A stretch of 7,400 nt of DNA, from the NCBI GenBank assembly GCA_003022655.1, contig PXSX01000173.1, forward strand, positions 1-7,400. The letters run 5' to 3'. Positions 72-7,400 of the stretch are shown here, one piece after another. Both the position numbers and the translations under genes were made by a program. This DNA is from Bacteroidetes bacterium QH_1_64_81. Its GTDB lineage: Bacteria > Bacteroidota > Rhodothermia > Rhodothermales > Salinibacteraceae. Under the pieces are notes generated by a model. That model was given only the letters and a program-made list of their open reading frames with translations. It was not told where the DNA came from and did no database searches. Within the stretch, counting starts at the first letter, position 1. Each line of letters begins with the position of its first letter.

Positions 72-1652
72 TCACTCCCACTCGATCGTGGCCGGGGGTT
101 TTGAGCTCACGTCGTACACAGTGCGGTTGATGCCGGGGACCTCATTGACGATTCGGTTGGAGACGTGCCCGAGGAAGTCGTGCGGAAGGTGCGCCCAGTC
201 GGCCGTCATGCCGTCCACACTGGTCACCGCGCGGAGGGCGCAGACGTTTTCGTAGGTCCGCTCGTCCCCCATCACGCCCACGCTCTGCACCGGGAGCAGG
301 ACGGCAAAGGCCTGCCATACCTCGTCGTAGAGGTCGTTGGCCCGGAGCTCGTCGATGAAGATAGCGTCGGCCTCACGGAGGAGGGCCAATCGCTCGCGCG
401 TCACTGGGCCCAGGATGCGGATGGCGAGTCCGGGCCCGGGGAAGGGGTGCCGCTCCACGATGGGCTCCGGCACGTCGAGCAGGCGGCCGATCTCGCGCAC
501 CTCGTCTTTGAAGAGCTCCCGGAAGGGCTCGATGAGCTCGAAGTCAAGTTCCTCGGGCAGCCCGCCCACATTGTGGTGGGTCTTGATGGTGGCCGAGGGC
601 CCCTTGAACGAGACGCTCTCGATGAGGTCGGGGTAGAGCGTGCCCTGCGCCAGGAACGTGGGGCGGTGCCCCAGGTCGGCGGCAATCGCCTCGGTCTGCT
701 CCTCAAAGACCTCGATGAACGTGTTGCCCACGATGGTGCGCTTTTCCTCGGGATCGACCACCCCATCGAGCCGCTCCAGGAAGCGGTCCGTAGCGTCGGT
801 GGTGCGCAGGTCCATCTCGAAGTGGCCACGGAAGGTGTCCTGCACCTGGTCCCACTCGCCCTTCCGTAGCAGGCCGTTATTGACGAAGATGCAGTGCAGC
901 TGGTCGCTGAGGGCACGCTGCAGGAGGGCCGCTGCGACCGACGAGTCGACGCCGCCGGACAGGCCGAGGATGACGTGTCGGTCGCCCACCCGCTCGCGAA
1001 TCTCGCGCACCTGCTCCTCGACGAACGAGGCAGGCGTCCAGTCGCCCCTGCAGCCGCAGATTTTGTACGCAAAGTTTTCCAGAATTTGCCGGCCAGAATC
1101 TGTGTGCACGACCTCCGGGTGAAACTGCACGCCGTAGTACGGCTCCTCTGTGTCCCGCACGGCGGCCACTGGGGCGTTGTCGGTCCGGGCGATGGCCTCG
1201 TAGCCGTCGGGCAGGGCCGTGAGGTGGTCGCTGTGGCTCATCCAGACGGTCGAGCCGCTGGGCACCTCCTCGAAGAGCTGCGACTTCTCCTCCCCATTCG
1301 GCGGCACCTGAATCTGCGCCCGCCCAAACTCGCGCCGCTCGGCCCGCTCCACCTCGCCCCCCAGCTGATGGGCCATCGCCTGGAGCCCGTAGCAAATGCC
1401 CAGGACAGGCACCGGGGAGCCATCGGGGCGTTCGAGGTCGAAAAGCGCAGGGTCGAGCTGGGGCCCTTCCTCGTCGTAGACCGAGCAGGGCCCGCCGGAC
1501 AGAATGACGCCGCGGGGCTCCAGCGCGTCAATCTCTGCCGTGTCCACCGTACACGGATGGATCTCCGAATACACGCCCGTCTCGCGCACCCGGCGGGCAA
1601 TGAGCTGGGTGTACTGGGAGCCGAAGTCCAGAATGACGATGTTTTCGTGCAT
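72..1652 (-). CDS. guaA: GMP synthase (glutamine-hydrolysing)
   Basis: This cytosolic enzyme converts XMP to GMP using ATP and glutamine, the last step of de novo GMP synthesis. The 526-residue length is normal for the single-chain form. An N-terminal class I glutamine amidotransferase domain spans roughly residues 4-195, with the nucleophile Cys87 in GICYG and the His178/Glu180 pair in FHPE. The ATP-pyrophosphatase domain follows, with the P-loop SGGVDSS at 232-238. The C-terminal dimerisation domain ends in the family-typical PPATIEWE. No frameshift or missing catalytic residue is visible. The ATG at 1652 places the usual N-terminal [12 protein letters not shown] correctly. No Shine-Dalgarno sequence precedes it; instead a repeat-rich hairpin candidate ends 8 bases before the start. 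It is the last gene of the minus-strand group, 133 bases after gcvH, so it may be co-transcribed with it or have its own promoter. No purine riboswitch was recognised in the leader. Confidence 0.98.
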
Positions 1653-2313: not shown

Positions 2314-2702
2314 CTACGACCGGGCGGGAACGCCCTTTTCCTCCAGGGCCGCTACGACGGGCGGCGGTACGAACTTCGACACGTCCCCGTCCCACCGGTG
2401 TGCATCCCGGACCATCGACGAGCTGATGAGGGCGTACTCCTCGGAGGTCATAAAGAATACCGTTTCGAACTCCGGAGCCAGCTTCCGGTTTGCAAACGCC
2501 ATCGCACTCCGTCCAGATCCTGGGTGCACTGACGCACGAGGTCCGTGCGCTCCTCGGTCGAGAAGAGGGTTTCTTTCTCCAGGTTCACCCCCACAGTCAC
2601 CTCCACGCGGTCGAAGAGGCGAAGGGCCCGCTCCAGGACGTCCCGGTGTCCGAACGTGAAGGGGTCGAACGTGCCGGGGTACAGGGCAAAGTTCTTATCC
2701 AT
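2314..2702 (-). pseudogene. coaD: Phosphopantetheine adenylyltransferase, internally deleted and frameshifted
   Basis: CoaD transfers AMP from ATP to 4'-phosphopantetheine, the penultimate step of coenzyme A synthesis. The first 66 codons are clearly CoaD: LYPGTFDPFTFGH with the (T/H)xGH nucleotidyltransferase motif (His19), then Lys43 and LFSTEERTDLVRQ. After DGV at about 2505 this frame continues as non-homologous residues to a TGA at 2448. The CoaD C-terminus resumes at 2502 in another frame (MAFANRKLAPEFETVFFMTS, then ISSS) and ends at 2314. Compared with E. coli CoaD (159 residues), about 36 residues between these parts are absent from the DNA, not merely out of frame. They include the conserved RGLR motif and the following (D/E)FxYE segment that shape the substrate site. 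Two leftover bases at the junction cause the shift. Adding 36 to the two parts (66 + 62) gives 164 residues, a normal length. The encoded product should be inactive. An assembly or base-calling error cannot be excluded, since the gene is normally essential. Confidence 0.85.
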
Positions 2703-2709
2703 GAGAATG

Positions 2710-2748
2710 GGGCAGTCAGGACCGGGGGACGCATCGGGCAGTCAGGAC
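2710..2748. repeat. 13-base direct repeat between rsmD and coaD
   Basis: GGGCAGTCAGGAC occurs at 2710-2722 and again, exactly, at 2736-2748, a spacing of 26 bases. The second copy covers the rsmD stop codon (2742-2744), and the first sits 7 bases upstream of the coaD start. It probably reflects a small local duplication around the rsmD terminus. Confidence 0.7.
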
Positions 2749-3362
2749 TCTTCCGTCGTCGAAATGCCCTCGCCTGCAGTGTCCTCGGTCACGGTCTCGT
2801 CGCTGACCCCGTCCTCCTCCGGCGGCAGCGGGGGCCGAAACAGACTCACGATGGTGCGCCCGTAGGACCGGCTCGTCATCAGATGCGGGTGCTCGTCGAA
2901 CCAGTCGTGAGAGCTGTGTTCGAGCGTGAAGACGCCGTCGGTCTGGAGGTGTGGGAGGGCCAGGTCGGGCATGTCCTGCATGGCCTCCAGCTCGTAGGGA
3001 GGGTCCGCCGTGATGAGATCGAGCTCCGGCCCGCCGTAAGATCGCAGGTACTCCACGGCGTCACCCTGAATAAAGATGCACTTGTCCTCGACGCCGAGCT
3101 TCTCGGCGTTCTCCCGCGCGTAGTCGAGCACCTCGCGCTTCTGCTCTACAAACGTCACGAGGGCTGCTCCCCGGCTGATGGCTTCGAGTCCGAGGGCGCC
3201 GGTTCCAGCAAAGAGGTCGAGTACCTCGGCCCCTTCGAGGTAGATGCGGGCGTCGATGAGTCCAAACAGCGCCTCTCGGGTGCGGGCCGTCGACGGACGG
3301 GTTTGGTGGCCCGACGGGGTTTTGAGGCCGTGGCCCCCGAACCGGCCGGCGATAAGTTTCAT
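2742..3362 (-). CDS. rsmD: 16S rRNA (guanine966-N2)-methyltransferase RsmD
   Basis: RsmD uses S-adenosylmethionine to methylate N2 of G966 of 16S rRNA (E. coli numbering) in the assembling small subunit. The 206-residue product shows the family order: MKLIAGRFGG at the N-terminus, the RPSTARTREALFGLI segment at 22-36, the SAM-binding motif LDLFAGTGALG at 48-58, an acidic ribose-binding Glu73 in FVEQ, and the catalytic DPPY at 120-123. A tail from about residue 180 is dominated by Glu, Asp, Thr and Ser, extends past the usual C-terminus, and is probably a haloadaptive disordered extension. The ATG at 3362 matches the conserved start of the family. It lies 153 bases downstream of the PilM-like gene and 39 bases upstream of coaD. 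The rsmD-coaD neighbourhood is widely conserved in bacteria, which supports both assignments. Confidence 0.96.
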   Translation of the reverse strand: MKLIAGRFGGHGLKTPSGHQTRPSTARTREALFGLIDARIYLEGAEVLDLFAGTGALGLEAISRGAALVTFVEQKREVLDYARENAEKLGVEDKCIFIQGDAVEYLRSYGGPELDLITADPPYELEAMQDMPDLALPHLQTDGVFTLEHSSHDWFDEHPHLMTSRSYGRTIVSLFRPPLPPEEDGVSDETVTEDTAGEGISTTEES

Positions 3363-3515
3363 GGAAGACGGGAATCGAATCGTGAGAATATTCTGAGAGC
3401 CCCCTCGCAGACGCCCGGCGTATGGTAAACGGCGCTCGACGGAGAGATCCGCAGACCGTCTCGGCCTCCTACACTGCCGGAATACTTCTCTGCTCAGGAC
3501 CCAGCTTGGGCGAGC

Positions 3516-4454
3516 TCAGGCAGACTGGATCCCCAGTGCTCCTCCGATACAGGGCGCGTATGCGCCAGGGGCCTCGTCTCGCGGGCGCTCCGACGCCCAA
3601 CGGAGGAGCCCAAACGGATCGAGCGAAACAGGCGAACAGTCAAAGACGGTCTCAAACGGCCCGGTAGTGGCCGAATCGGCGCCGGGGCCGTAGACGAAGA
3701 GTCCGCGAACCTCATTCACCGGAACCCCAATTCGGTTGAGAAGCCCAACCGCGTAGTAGGCCTGGTTCTTGGGACGTCGCGCTTCTCGCACGGCGTGCGC
3801 GTGGAACCACGTCCCCTCGTGGGTGAGGGCATACTCGGTGTACGTTGGATAGTGCCCGATTGCCAACCCATAGCCCTCCTCATTCTCAGCGGGGAGGAGC
3901 TCCTCGGTGTCGGCGCGTCCCATCAGCGAGGCAACGGCCTCCGTGCTCACCATCTGGACGAGATCCTGCACGGGAAGGGCGGGCCGAAGGGTGTCCAGGA
4001 GATCCTCAACAGCCTGCGGCACGGCCAACACGTGGACCCACTCGACGGTCTCCCCTCTCGTCTCGACGGTACGGACCGACCGGGACGTGGTGTGAAGGGC
4101 ATTGGGGGACCGGGTGTTCGTCACCAGTGCCGCCTGATACGCGACGCGCTGTCCGCGCTCCTGTTCGGAAAGCCCGGTCGGGATCGGCACAAAGAAACTA
4201 TAGACCTCCAGCGGATGGATGATCAGGGCAGTGGCCAAGGCCTCAGTGCCCTCAAGGGCGTCTTGGGCGAAGGCGCCGACCCGGTCGAGAGCGTCCGGGG
4301 CTCCGTCCGCGTCCCAGAGGACTCCACTTCCGTTCAGGTCGACGGTCTTGGAGTCGAGACGCCGGAGCTGTAGGGCCGAGTCCTCCCGTCCGATTTCGGC
4401 GCACCGAATCGTCGGTCCTTGAATGTGGATCGCAGCCGAAATCGACTGTGTCAT
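3516..4454 (-). CDS. PilM/GspL-like actin-fold protein (possibly DUF3822-type)
   Basis: This 312-residue protein has no recognised enzymatic motif, but its segments follow the order seen in the PilM/GspL branch of the actin-like (ASKHA) fold. These are a strand with SFFVPIP at 86-92 (compare 'r.i.lP' in PilM), HVLAVPQAVEDLLDTL at 141-156, a Glu-Ala-containing helix around 172-180, YGLAIG followed by a Thr-rich turn and strand at 195-210, and GLFVYGPGAD at 251-260. SLDPFGLL follows at 277-284, and AYAPCIGGALGI lies at the C-terminus. The stretch AYYAVGLLNRIGVPVNEV (232-249) also resembles Bacteroidota DUF3822 proteins, which as I recall are often encoded next to rsmD; that context fits here. 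The phosphate-binding loop is not canonical, so ATP binding is doubtful. There is no signal peptide or membrane segment, so it should be cytosolic. The ATG at 4454 lies 67 bases after the pseudopilin-like gene. The assignment is by pattern only; a role as membrane-complex scaffold is inference. Confidence 0.5.
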   Translation of the reverse strand: MTQSISAAIHIQGPTIRCAEIGREDSALQLRRLDSKTVDLNGSGVLWDADGAPDALDRVGAFAQDALEGTEALATALIIHPLEVYSFFVPIPTGLSEQERGQRVAYQAALVTNTRSPNALHTTSRSVRTVETRGETVEWVHVLAVPQAVEDLLDTLRPALPVQDLVQMVSTEAVASLMGRADTEELLPAENEEGYGLAIGHYPTYTEYALTHEGTWFHAHAVREARRPKNQAYYAVGLLNRIGVPVNEVRGLFVYGPGADSATTGPFETVFDCSPVSLDPFGLLRWASERPRDEAPGAYAPCIGGALGIQSA

Positions 4455-4521: not shown

Positions 4522-4983
4522 TTACTCCCAGCTGGCAGCATCCGCCTGCGTCGGGTCCCCCGACAGAGTTCCGATTTTGTCGTCGGTATCCGGATCCTCA
4601 AGGAGGTACGTCTCAACCCGGCCCGTATCGTTGACGGTGTACTGGAACCGGTTTCCTGTACGTGGGGAATACAGCAGAGAGTCGAGATTGATCGGGCCTT
4701 CGAACACGCTGTCCTGTCGGGTAGAAAGAATGGAGTCGTTGCGCACGTGCTGCAGAAGCAGGTTCAGCGAATCCGGGTACGACGCACTATCCCGCTCGTA
4801 GTCGACTAGGGCCGTCCGAATGTTTGTCATCCGAGCCCGTGTCTCTTCAGTAATGCGCTGCTGGCGCTCGATGCGGTCGTAGGGCTCAGTAATCGACTGA
4901 TACAGGAAGTATGCGAGGACGACAATTGCGATGCCCAGGACGATTTGAACGCCCGTCTGTATCGTTCCACTGCTCGTTGCCAT
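4522..4983 (-). CDS. Small membrane-anchored protein with pseudopilin-like soluble domain
   Basis: With the ATG at 4983 this is a 153-residue protein. A single hydrophobic segment spans about residues 11-28 (VQIVLGIAIVVLAYFLY). A charged helix with coiled-coil character follows at about 33-55, then IRTALVDYERDSASYPDSLNLLL at 55-77, which resembles the 'ir.AL..Y..d.g.YP.sL..L' pattern of type II secretion and type IV pilus pseudopilins. RTGNRFQYTV at 108-117 and the Asp-rich C-terminus ending in SWE recall the end of GspG-like major pseudopilins. The canonical prepilin peptidase site (Gly-Phe-Thr-Leu-Ile-Glu) is missing, so it is probably not processed or assembled as a pilin; it should sit in the inner membrane with its C-terminal domain in the periplasm. 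An upstream in-frame ATG at 5244 would add 87 residues without visible domain character across the likely promoter, so I prefer 4983. The family is not recognised; the pseudopilin similarity is by eye. Confidence 0.6.
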   Translation of the reverse strand: MATSSGTIQTGVQIVLGIAIVVLAYFLYQSITEPYDRIERQQRITEETRARMTNIRTALVDYERDSASYPDSLNLLLQHVRNDSILSTRQDSVFEGPINLDSLLYSPRTGNRFQYTVNDTGRVETYLLEDPDTDDKIGTLSGDPTQADAASWE

Positions 4984-5229: not shown

Positions 5230-5308
5230 ACATGCGAATGCCATGTTCTCTCCTCAGCCGAAAACAAAGTAGGTCCACCCGTGTTGGATTCGACCGTTTT
5301 GCGTTCCC

Positions 5309-5322
5309 ACCGGCCAACCGGT
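5309..5322. repeat. Inverted repeat before the pdxJ start
   Basis: ACCGG (5309-5313) and CCGGT (5318-5322) flank CCAA, ending 11 bases before the GTG start of pdxJ. It could be a small operator or an mRNA hairpin near the start, but a 5-base-pair GC-rich palindrome is not rare at this composition. Confidence 0.3.
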
Positions 5323-5333
5323 TCACCCACCCT

Positions 5334-6065
5334 GTGATTAATCTTCTCATCAACGTCGATCACGTTGGCACCCTCCGCAACGCCCGCGAGGAGACGTTCC
5401 CCGACCCCGTCCACGCCGCTGCCCGCTGCGAGCAGGCGGGCGCCGACGGCATTGTCTTTCACCTGCGGGAGGACCGCCGCCACATCACCGAGCGCGACGT
5501 GCGGCTCCTGTCCGAGACCGTGCAGGGCAAGCTCGACTTTGAGCTCTCGACGGAGGCCGAGGTCGTCTCCATCTGCTGCGACGTGACGCCGGATCTGGCG
5601 ACGCTGGTGCCGGAGCGGCGGGAGGAGGTCACTACGGAGGGCGGGCTCGACGTGGCGGCGAATCGTCAGCGCCTCAACACCGTGACGGACCGGCTCTACG
5701 GCGCCGGGGTGGACCAGGTGAGCTTCTTCGTCGACCCGGTCCCGGCGCACATTGAAGCCGCTGCCGAGCTCGGGGCCAACTGCGTCGAGCTTCACACCGG
5801 CGACTTTGCCGAGGCCCCGACGGAGGCGGCCCGCCGCGAGGAGGCCGAGCGACTCGCCACCGGGGCCGAGGCCGCCCACGAGGCCGGGCTCCGCGTGCAC
5901 GCCGGACACGGGCTTGATTATCGCAATTTTCCGCTCTTCCGCGACGTGGTCCCGCACGTCGCTGAGGTCTCCATCGGATTCGCAGTGATGGCTCGCGCCA
6001 TCCTGGTGGGGATGGATCGGGCCGTCCGCGACATGCGTGCAACTGTGAAGGGTTTGCAGTCGTAG
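5334..6065 (+). CDS. pdxJ: Pyridoxine 5'-phosphate synthase
   Basis: PdxJ condenses 1-deoxy-D-xylulose 5-phosphate with 3-amino-2-oxopropyl phosphate to form pyridoxine 5'-phosphate, the ring-closing step of the DXP-dependent vitamin B6 route. It is a cytosolic TIM-barrel enzyme. The hallmark segments are INVDHVGTLRNARE at 6-19, FHLREDRRHI at 42-51 (catalytic His43, equivalent to E. coli His45), the catalytic Glu70 in DFELST, LVPERREEVTTEGGLD at 91-106, ELHTG at 152-156 and HAGHGL at 189-194. The GTG at 5334 gives 243 residues, the same length as E. coli PdxJ, and starts exactly at the conserved INLLINVDH. The in-frame ATG at 5232 would add 34 residues rich in Arg, Ser and Pro with no family match, unlike the acidic body of the protein, so it is rejected. 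era follows 45 bases later on the same strand and may be co-transcribed. Confidence 0.96.
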   Translation: MINLLINVDHVGTLRNAREETFPDPVHAAARCEQAGADGIVFHLREDRRHITERDVRLLSETVQGKLDFELSTEAEVVSICCDVTPDLATLVPERREEVTTEGGLDVAANRQRLNTVTDRLYGAGVDQVSFFVDPVPAHIEAAAELGANCVELHTGDFAEAPTEAARREEAERLATGAEAAHEAGLRVHAGHGLDYRNFPLFRDVVPHVAEVSIGFAVMARAILVGMDRAVRDMRATVKGLQS

Positions 6066-6110
6066 AGGGGCATTGGCCATGCGTTCTTTTCTTCCCATCT
6101 TTTCGTCTCC

Positions 6111-7025
6111 ATGGAGAACTCCGATCCTTTCTTCGAGGACATCTCCGACGACCACACCAGTGGTTACGTGGCTATCGTGGGCAAGCCCAACGTGGGCAAA
6201 AGCACGTTGATGAACGCGCTGCTCGGGGAGAAGCTGTCGATTGTCACCAGAAAGCCGCAGACCACTCGTCATCGCATCCTCGGGATCCACTCGGGCCCCG
6301 ACCACCAGGTCATCTTCCTCGACACCCCGGGCATCATCGAGCCCCGGTACGCGCTGCACGAGTCCATGATGGGACAGGTGCAGGGCGCCATCCGGGACGC
6401 CGATCTGCTGCTCTTCCTCCACGAGGCGACGCAGGAGGAGCCGGACACGCAGAGCCTCGAGAAGATCGGCGATACTCCGGCGTTCCTGGTGCTCACGAAG
6501 ATGGACCTGATTCCGCGGGAGGAGGTGCTTCCGCTCGTCGAGTCCTACGAAGAGCTCCGGGCCTTCGACGAGGTGGTGCCCACCTCGGCGAAGGACGGCC
6601 GCAACATCCAGAAGCTCCTGCACCTTGTCCTCGATACGCTTCCGGAGGGCCCACCCTTCTATCCAAAAGAGATGATCAGCGAGCATCCGGAGCGCTTCTT
6701 CGTGGCAGAGATGATCCGGGAAAAGGTGTATCAGCACTACCACCAGGAAATTCCCTACTCCGTGCAGGTCAACATCGTCGCCTACGAGGAGCGGGGTGAG
6801 GGGGAAAAAGACTACATCGACGCGGAGATCGTCGTCATGGAGGAGTCGCACAAGGGCATCCTCATCGGCGAAGGCGGCAAGGCCCTCAAGAAAGTGGGCA
6901 TGACGGCCCGGGAGGACATTGAGGCGTTTGTCGACAGCCCCGTCTACCTGAACCTGCACGTAAAGGTGCAGGAGAACTGGCGCGACCGGAAAAACATCCT
7001 CCGCTCCTACGGCTATCGGTCGTAG
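6111..7025 (+). CDS. era: GTPase Era, ribosome assembly factor
   Basis: Era is an essential GTPase that binds the 3' end of 16S rRNA and helps 30S subunit maturation, peripheral to the inner membrane. The 304-residue length is normal. The GTPase domain shows G1 GKPNVGKS at 24-31, the switch I segment KPQTTRHR at 48-55, G3 DTPG at 71-74, G4 TKMD at 129-132 and G5 SAK at 159-161. The C-terminal KH domain has the IGEGGKALKKVG loop at 252-263, preceded by the family-typical PERFFVAEMIREK and ending VKVQENWRDRKNILRSYGY. G4 has Thr in place of the usual Asn of NKxD, a substitution seen in some GTPases. The ATG at 6111 adds a short acidic leader of about 17 residues before the first strand. It follows pdxJ closely and converges with the partial gene downstream. 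Confidence 0.97.
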   Translation: MENSDPFFEDISDDHTSGYVAIVGKPNVGKSTLMNALLGEKLSIVTRKPQTTRHRILGIHSGPDHQVIFLDTPGIIEPRYALHESMMGQVQGAIRDADLLLFLHEATQEEPDTQSLEKIGDTPAFLVLTKMDLIPREEVLPLVESYEELRAFDEVVPTSAKDGRNIQKLLHLVLDTLPEGPPFYPKEMISEHPERFFVAEMIREKVYQHYHQEIPYSVQVNIVAYEERGEGEKDYIDAEIVVMEESHKGILIGEGGKALKKVGMTAREDIEAFVDSPVYLNLHVKVQENWRDRKNILRSYGYRS

Positions 7026-7034: not shown

Positions 7035-7400
7035 TCAGCCAAGCTGGATGGTCAATCCCTTTTCGACGGCCCGAACGTGCGCCGACGGGACGGCGGTGTG
7101 GGGAAGTGAGTGCTGTTGCAATTCTCGACGCCGTCGATAGTCTTTGCGTAGGTTCGTGAAGGCGTCCGCACGCGCCTCCGGAGAATCGTTGGGGGTCGCC
7201 CGGAGCGCCGCATCGTCGGCCCGGAGGTCATAGGCCTGTCGGGCAAGGTGGTTGAGCCACTCCGTCATCGACAACCGTGGATCGGGGGGCGCACACTGCA
7301 GCTCGTCCTTCGGCGTCGGTCGGAGGGCCGCCGTCCCGCCCCAGGTGGGCTCCACGCCCAGCTGCTCACACAGCGCGTCGTAGAGCATTTTCGTGCCCCG
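7035..7400 (-). CDS. Partial uncharacterised protein (C-terminal part)
   Basis: The frame is open from the window edge to a TGA at 7035-7037, covering at least 121 codons. An ATG at 7388 gives 117 residues, but the frame continues upstream through the last 12 bases, so the true start may lie outside the window. The sequence is mixed in charge, with helical character around 40-90 (SMTEWLNHLARQAYDLRADD) and a cluster of basic residues in KDYRRRREL. I see no membrane segment or catalytic motif and do not recognise a family. It converges on era with a 9-base gap, which leaves little room for separate terminators. The absence of stop codons at this GC content is weak evidence for coding, but the tight convergent placement supports a real gene. 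Confidence 0.55.
   Translation of the reverse strand, partial: RGTKMLYDALCEQLGVEPTWGGTAALRPTPKDELQCAPPDPRLSMTEWLNHLARQAYDLRADDAALRATPNDSPEARADAFTNLRKDYRRRRELQQHSLPHTAVPSAHVRAVEKGLTIQLG

Follow-up and report, generated by a model that had tools for sequence, protein, structure and literature searches.

At positions 2314-2702 of the window, by which we mean the whole 7,400-nucleotide stretch of DNA analysed here, the minus strand carries coaD, the gene coding for pantetheine-phosphate adenylyltransferase (PPAT), in a broken form. This raises the question of whether the organism has genuinely lost this gene or whether the lesion entered the sequence on its way to the database. On balance, the evidence indicates that the window organism has an intact coaD, or had one until very recently, and the broken gene is most likely either a faulty reconstruction of an intact one or a very recent deletion, not new biology.

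The coaD lesion and its predicted effect

Profile searches assigned two open reading frames (ORFs) of this strand to the bacterial CoaD family TIGR01510: the N-terminal ORF (2448-2702) matches positions 2-66 of the profile (E 1.6e-20, 73.7 bits) and the C-terminal ORF (2314-2529) matches positions 98-154 (E 6.7e-15, 55.4 bits). Scored separately, neither reaches the whole-protein cut-off of 103.3 bits; the coincidence of two such matches on one strand in two frames is far beyond chance. The closest relative found is a locus of Bacteroidetes bacterium QS_3_64_15 (L001), whose RsmD is 99% identical to that of the window, and comparison with it resolves the gene into the following parts.

2505..2702, minus strand: coaD codons 1-66, the N-terminal half with TFGH (TIGR01510 positions 2-66)
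2503..2504, minus strand: deletion junction, lacking 106 bases that L001 and nine further relatives have (DNA comparison)
2314..2502, minus strand: coaD residues 103-164 and the stop codon, the C-terminal half with ISSS, in a frame differing from that of the N-terminal half (TIGR01510 positions 98-154)
2448..2504, minus strand: out-of-frame tail of 18 codons and a stop codon, overlapping the C-terminal half and closing the N-terminal ORF after 84 residues

The coaD DNA runs colinear with that of L001 and is interrupted once, by a gap of exactly 106 bases that follows position 2503 of the window. Codons 1-66 and one base of codon 67 are retained, and the next base is the third of codon 102; as 106 bases amount to 35 codons and one base, the gene is frameshifted. 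The N-terminal frame reads on into 18 unrelated residues before a stop ends it at residue 84, and an open frame of 71 residues is left to the C-terminal half. The nucleotide-binding motif TFGH (TxGH, residues 16-19) and the ISSS region of the C-terminal half are kept, and RGLR is gone with residues 67-102. An earlier note on this DNA had described codons 1-66 as joined to the C-terminal part in another frame near 2502-2507, with about 106 bases or 36 residues including RGLR missing and with TFGH and ISSS intact; the comparison bears out this description, fixing the join at 2503/2504 and the loss relative to L001 at its exact length, and both motifs are present in the window translations.

In a complete relative from the public protein records (P0009), RGLR occupies residues 89-92, inside the lost segment. 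This protein matches 34 distinct solved PPAT sequences (E up to 0.001), and its residues 5-156 align with residues 4-155 of the E. coli enzyme (1b6t); based on this equal-length alignment, its RGLR arginines are probably the counterparts of E. coli Arg88 and Arg91. According to the available parts of two published studies, alanine at Arg88 or Arg91, among other positions, significantly reduced or abolished the activity of H. pylori PPAT (PMC12784347), and PPAT inactivation prevents bacterial viability (PMC3764209). With residues 67-102 and RGLR lost, the window product should therefore be inactive; judged from its sequence, coaD as written should be a null allele with a predicted inactive product, which agrees with the earlier claim that it could not be a normal PPAT. 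That the two halves still act, as a frameshifted or split CoaD dispensing with the RGLR region, is scarcely credible: both do stay open frames, but residues 67-102 are absent from the DNA itself, not merely out of frame, and with them have gone the probable counterparts of Arg88 and Arg91, where alanine significantly reduced or abolished H. pylori PPAT activity (PMC12784347).

Intact coaD in relatives and in public protein records

DNA identity between the window and L001 is 87-96%, depending on the aligned piece, and other matching loci carry the names Salinibacter and Salinivenus; the window organism is probably a halophilic relative of these genera. Ten of the 11 matching loci reach coaD (the eleventh, which ends within rsmD, is left out of the count), and in all ten the gene is open, contains RGLR, keeps the 106 bases and separates the start motif from MAFANRK by the same distance. 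On a broader scale, TIGR01510 finds a match in 59 of 60 genomes (G001 and its relatives), over the cut-off in 57, with no internal stop in coaD among the matches listed. Within the genus, the coaD-rsmD stretch is matched at the DNA level in 12 of 13 genomes, each of which has one open coaD covering profile positions 2-154. As the closest relatives checked that carry coaD have it whole, an assembly error or a very recent mutation is the most likely source of the lesion.

The thirteenth genus genome (G011) has no DNA match to coaD or rsmD, only weak matches to the window Era (E 3.7e-5 or worse) and one to RsmD (8.7e-4), and its weak TIGR01510 match, below the cut-off, overlaps its other PF01467 gene. 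Lacking both of these genes and any good match to era, it is read here as incomplete; as a candidate natural precedent for coaD loss it was rejected, being probably an incomplete and rearranged genome. At one of its loci (L052, 6339-10112) the genes that come after guaA and gcvH are not coaD and rsmD; not every genus member therefore has the order guaA-gcvH-coaD-rsmD. Four further genomes among the 60 depart from the common pattern: G026 has a partial TIGR01510 match just under the cut-off (profile positions 2-91); in G046 coaD is split between two contigs; G049 lacks a coaD match and has a weak RsmD match beside a good Era match; and G027, alone in this respect, has two full-length coaD matches (C148:4280-4738 and C73:3722-4180), perhaps from a mixed genome bin.

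The public protein records tell a comparable story. Queried with the intact L001 CoaD, they gave 1332 matches among 1470 candidates, and the 120 of these that were listed measure 150-178 residues. The complete relative P0009 (164 aa; JGI, cluster of 40 sequences) is identical to the window CoaD at 63 of its first 66 residues and at every one of its last 62, and has the missing part as well. Another JGI record, P0129 (97 aa), equals the same 62 C-terminal residues exactly, preceded by 35 residues of the missing part; it is intact through RGLR and starts at CoaD residue 68, one codon past the left breakpoint of the window (codon 67), a start that may come from the branching of an assembly graph or may be coincidental. 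Its match to solved PPATs identifies it as a piece of CoaD and nothing further. A third JGI record, P0130 (58 aa), is a C-terminal CoaD piece from another lineage; its first residue is precisely the Met of MAFANR, and it represents either a contig edge or another broken coaD. Against a database of 5.8 billion proteins, the 84-residue N-terminal ORF had eight hits (the best 79% identical), its own product not among them, and the C-terminal ORF had four; none of these 12 sequences contains the window tail or the junction, and the junction searched as an exact 31-base pattern had no match in viral contigs.

The search for signs of decay, repeats or chimerism

Assigned by family search, the eight other genes of the window are as follows.

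72-1652, minus strand: guaA
1786-2160, minus strand: gcvH
2742-3362, minus strand: rsmD (109.7 bits, below the NCBIfam cut-off of 117.5 and above the Pfam cut-off)
3516-4454, minus strand: gene without a family above cut-off
about 4522-4983, minus strand: gene without a family above cut-off
within 5232-6065, plus strand: pdxJ
6111-7025, plus strand: era
7035-7400, minus strand: end of a pdxB-like gene (Pfam DUF3410 over cut-off)

None of these genes has a frame-breaking gap relative to L001, and a single in-frame gap of 15 bases was found among them. Between genes, L001 has about 170 extra bases, inverted-repeat-rich by eye, at window position 6078 (between pdxJ and era), and about 177 extra bases at intergenic position 3506, on the downstream side of the gene spanning 3516-4454.

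Measured against L001, the N-terminal half of coaD has a dN of 0.020 and a dS of 0.136 (dN/dS 0.15; 9 changes) and the C-terminal half a dN of 0.014 and a dS of 0.118 (dN/dS 0.12; 7 changes), compared with dN/dS values of 0.04-0.26 in the eight neighbouring genes. The halves are as conserved as their neighbours, which excludes a long decay and, with only 9 and 7 changes, little else. Identity to L001 shows no step across the join, and thus no chimera of two strains is visible.

Repeats are the usual route of spontaneous deletion, and repeat collapse is a usual cause of assembly loss. At the join no base is shared with L001 and none can be shifted across it; a comparison of the two 50-base edges, made with L001 letters so that 1-2 shared bases are possible in the window's own pre-loss sequence, gave a direct repeat of at most 5 bases, which lies away from the breakpoints. 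As there is no repeat at the join in L001, neither repeat collapse nor the usual repeat-mediated deletion is indicated, and the latter was rejected as a candidate. Of the alignment with relatives that the earlier note had proposed, the part concerning exact breakpoints succeeded, and the direct repeat sought beside them was not found.

Error, minority deletion or fixed loss

Were the loss real and fixed, there would have to be a substitute for an enzyme that is essential to coenzyme A synthesis. We regard it as unlikely that the loss is fixed in this strain and that a different gene provides PPAT, whether a second coaD, an archaeal-type PPAT or one of unknown type. Among the 60 genomes, the two full-length coaD matches of G027 and the lack of any in G049 speak for it. 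Against it stand the one coaD copy in each of the 12 coaD-bearing genus members and the archaeal-type PPAT model NF001985, which exceeded its cut-off in none of the 13 genus genomes (its control passed in 3 of 14 genomes) and gave there a single weak hit overlapping the coaD of G005. Likewise, PF01467 occurs at one to three places per genus genome, 33 in all, fitting CoaD, NadD-like and weak RibF-like genes, the assignment of those other than CoaD being probable from their length. Taken as a search for a second PPAT in relatives, TIGR01510, NF001985 and PF01467 recognised nothing in the genus beyond one CoaD per genome, so that the second PPAT raised by the earlier note finds no support in these 13 genomes, a set outside which the window's own genome lies. 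It is very improbable that CoaD is genuinely and stably gone from a free-living halophile related to Salinibacter, which would then obtain dephospho-CoA from an unrelated, unrecognised enzyme. In the few papers that a literature search on coaD pseudogenes and CoA biosynthesis found, the available portions contained no announcement of coaD loss in a free-living bacterium.

There remains the choice, left standing by the earlier note, between a recent event and an artefact, and it is supported by the normal constraint on both halves, the single open copy in all 12 gene-bearing genus members, and the public proteins that equal the C-terminal half exactly and keep the missing part. A possible if doubtful form of the former is that the deletion is real and very recent, was carried by a minority of cells in nature (or by a single amplified cell or clone) and was caught by the contig; such cells would be without CoA synthesis and dead or dying. 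The clean join, the lack of any other broken frame and the constraint on the halves are consistent with this, and the start of P0129 beside the left breakpoint fits a branching of intact and deleted forms, and a chance contig edge equally; however, neither the protein searches nor the viral contigs yielded a second record of the junction, and null alleles of essential genes are expected to be rare.

We consider a production or assembly error the probable cause of the lesion, at roughly 0.6: the 106 bases would have been dropped from one contig during local assembly, cloning or amplification, and the window would be showing an otherwise ordinary single-copy coaD in non-functional form. For an error speak the intact coaD in ten of ten loci and in 12 genus genomes, together with the records that retain the missing part beside an identical C-terminal half, the lack of the junction in all 12 protein hits, the normal constraint on both halves and the unbroken frames of the eight neighbouring genes; against it, the rest of the window is good base by base, and the join has neither a collapsible repeat nor a sign of chimerism. 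It is prior expectation that favours an error over a rare deletion. No new mechanism is called for by the coaD lesion, and its lesson is that, when an essential gene is broken on one contig and near-identical intact copies exist elsewhere, the reads should be checked first.

The available part of PMC11017572 documents that errors in assembly give rise to apparent pseudogenes in bacteria, and the window shares with such cases a broken conserved gene, near-identical intact copies elsewhere and no sign of decay; those cases involve frameshifts or internal stops, whereas the window has a 106-base loss. Compared with bacterial CoaD (TIGR01510; PDB 1vlh and 1b6t), the window copy differs in lacking residues 67-102, including RGLR, and in its broken frame, but both of its halves match the family, TFGH and ISSS are present, and the gene lies between gcvH and rsmD, as in L001.
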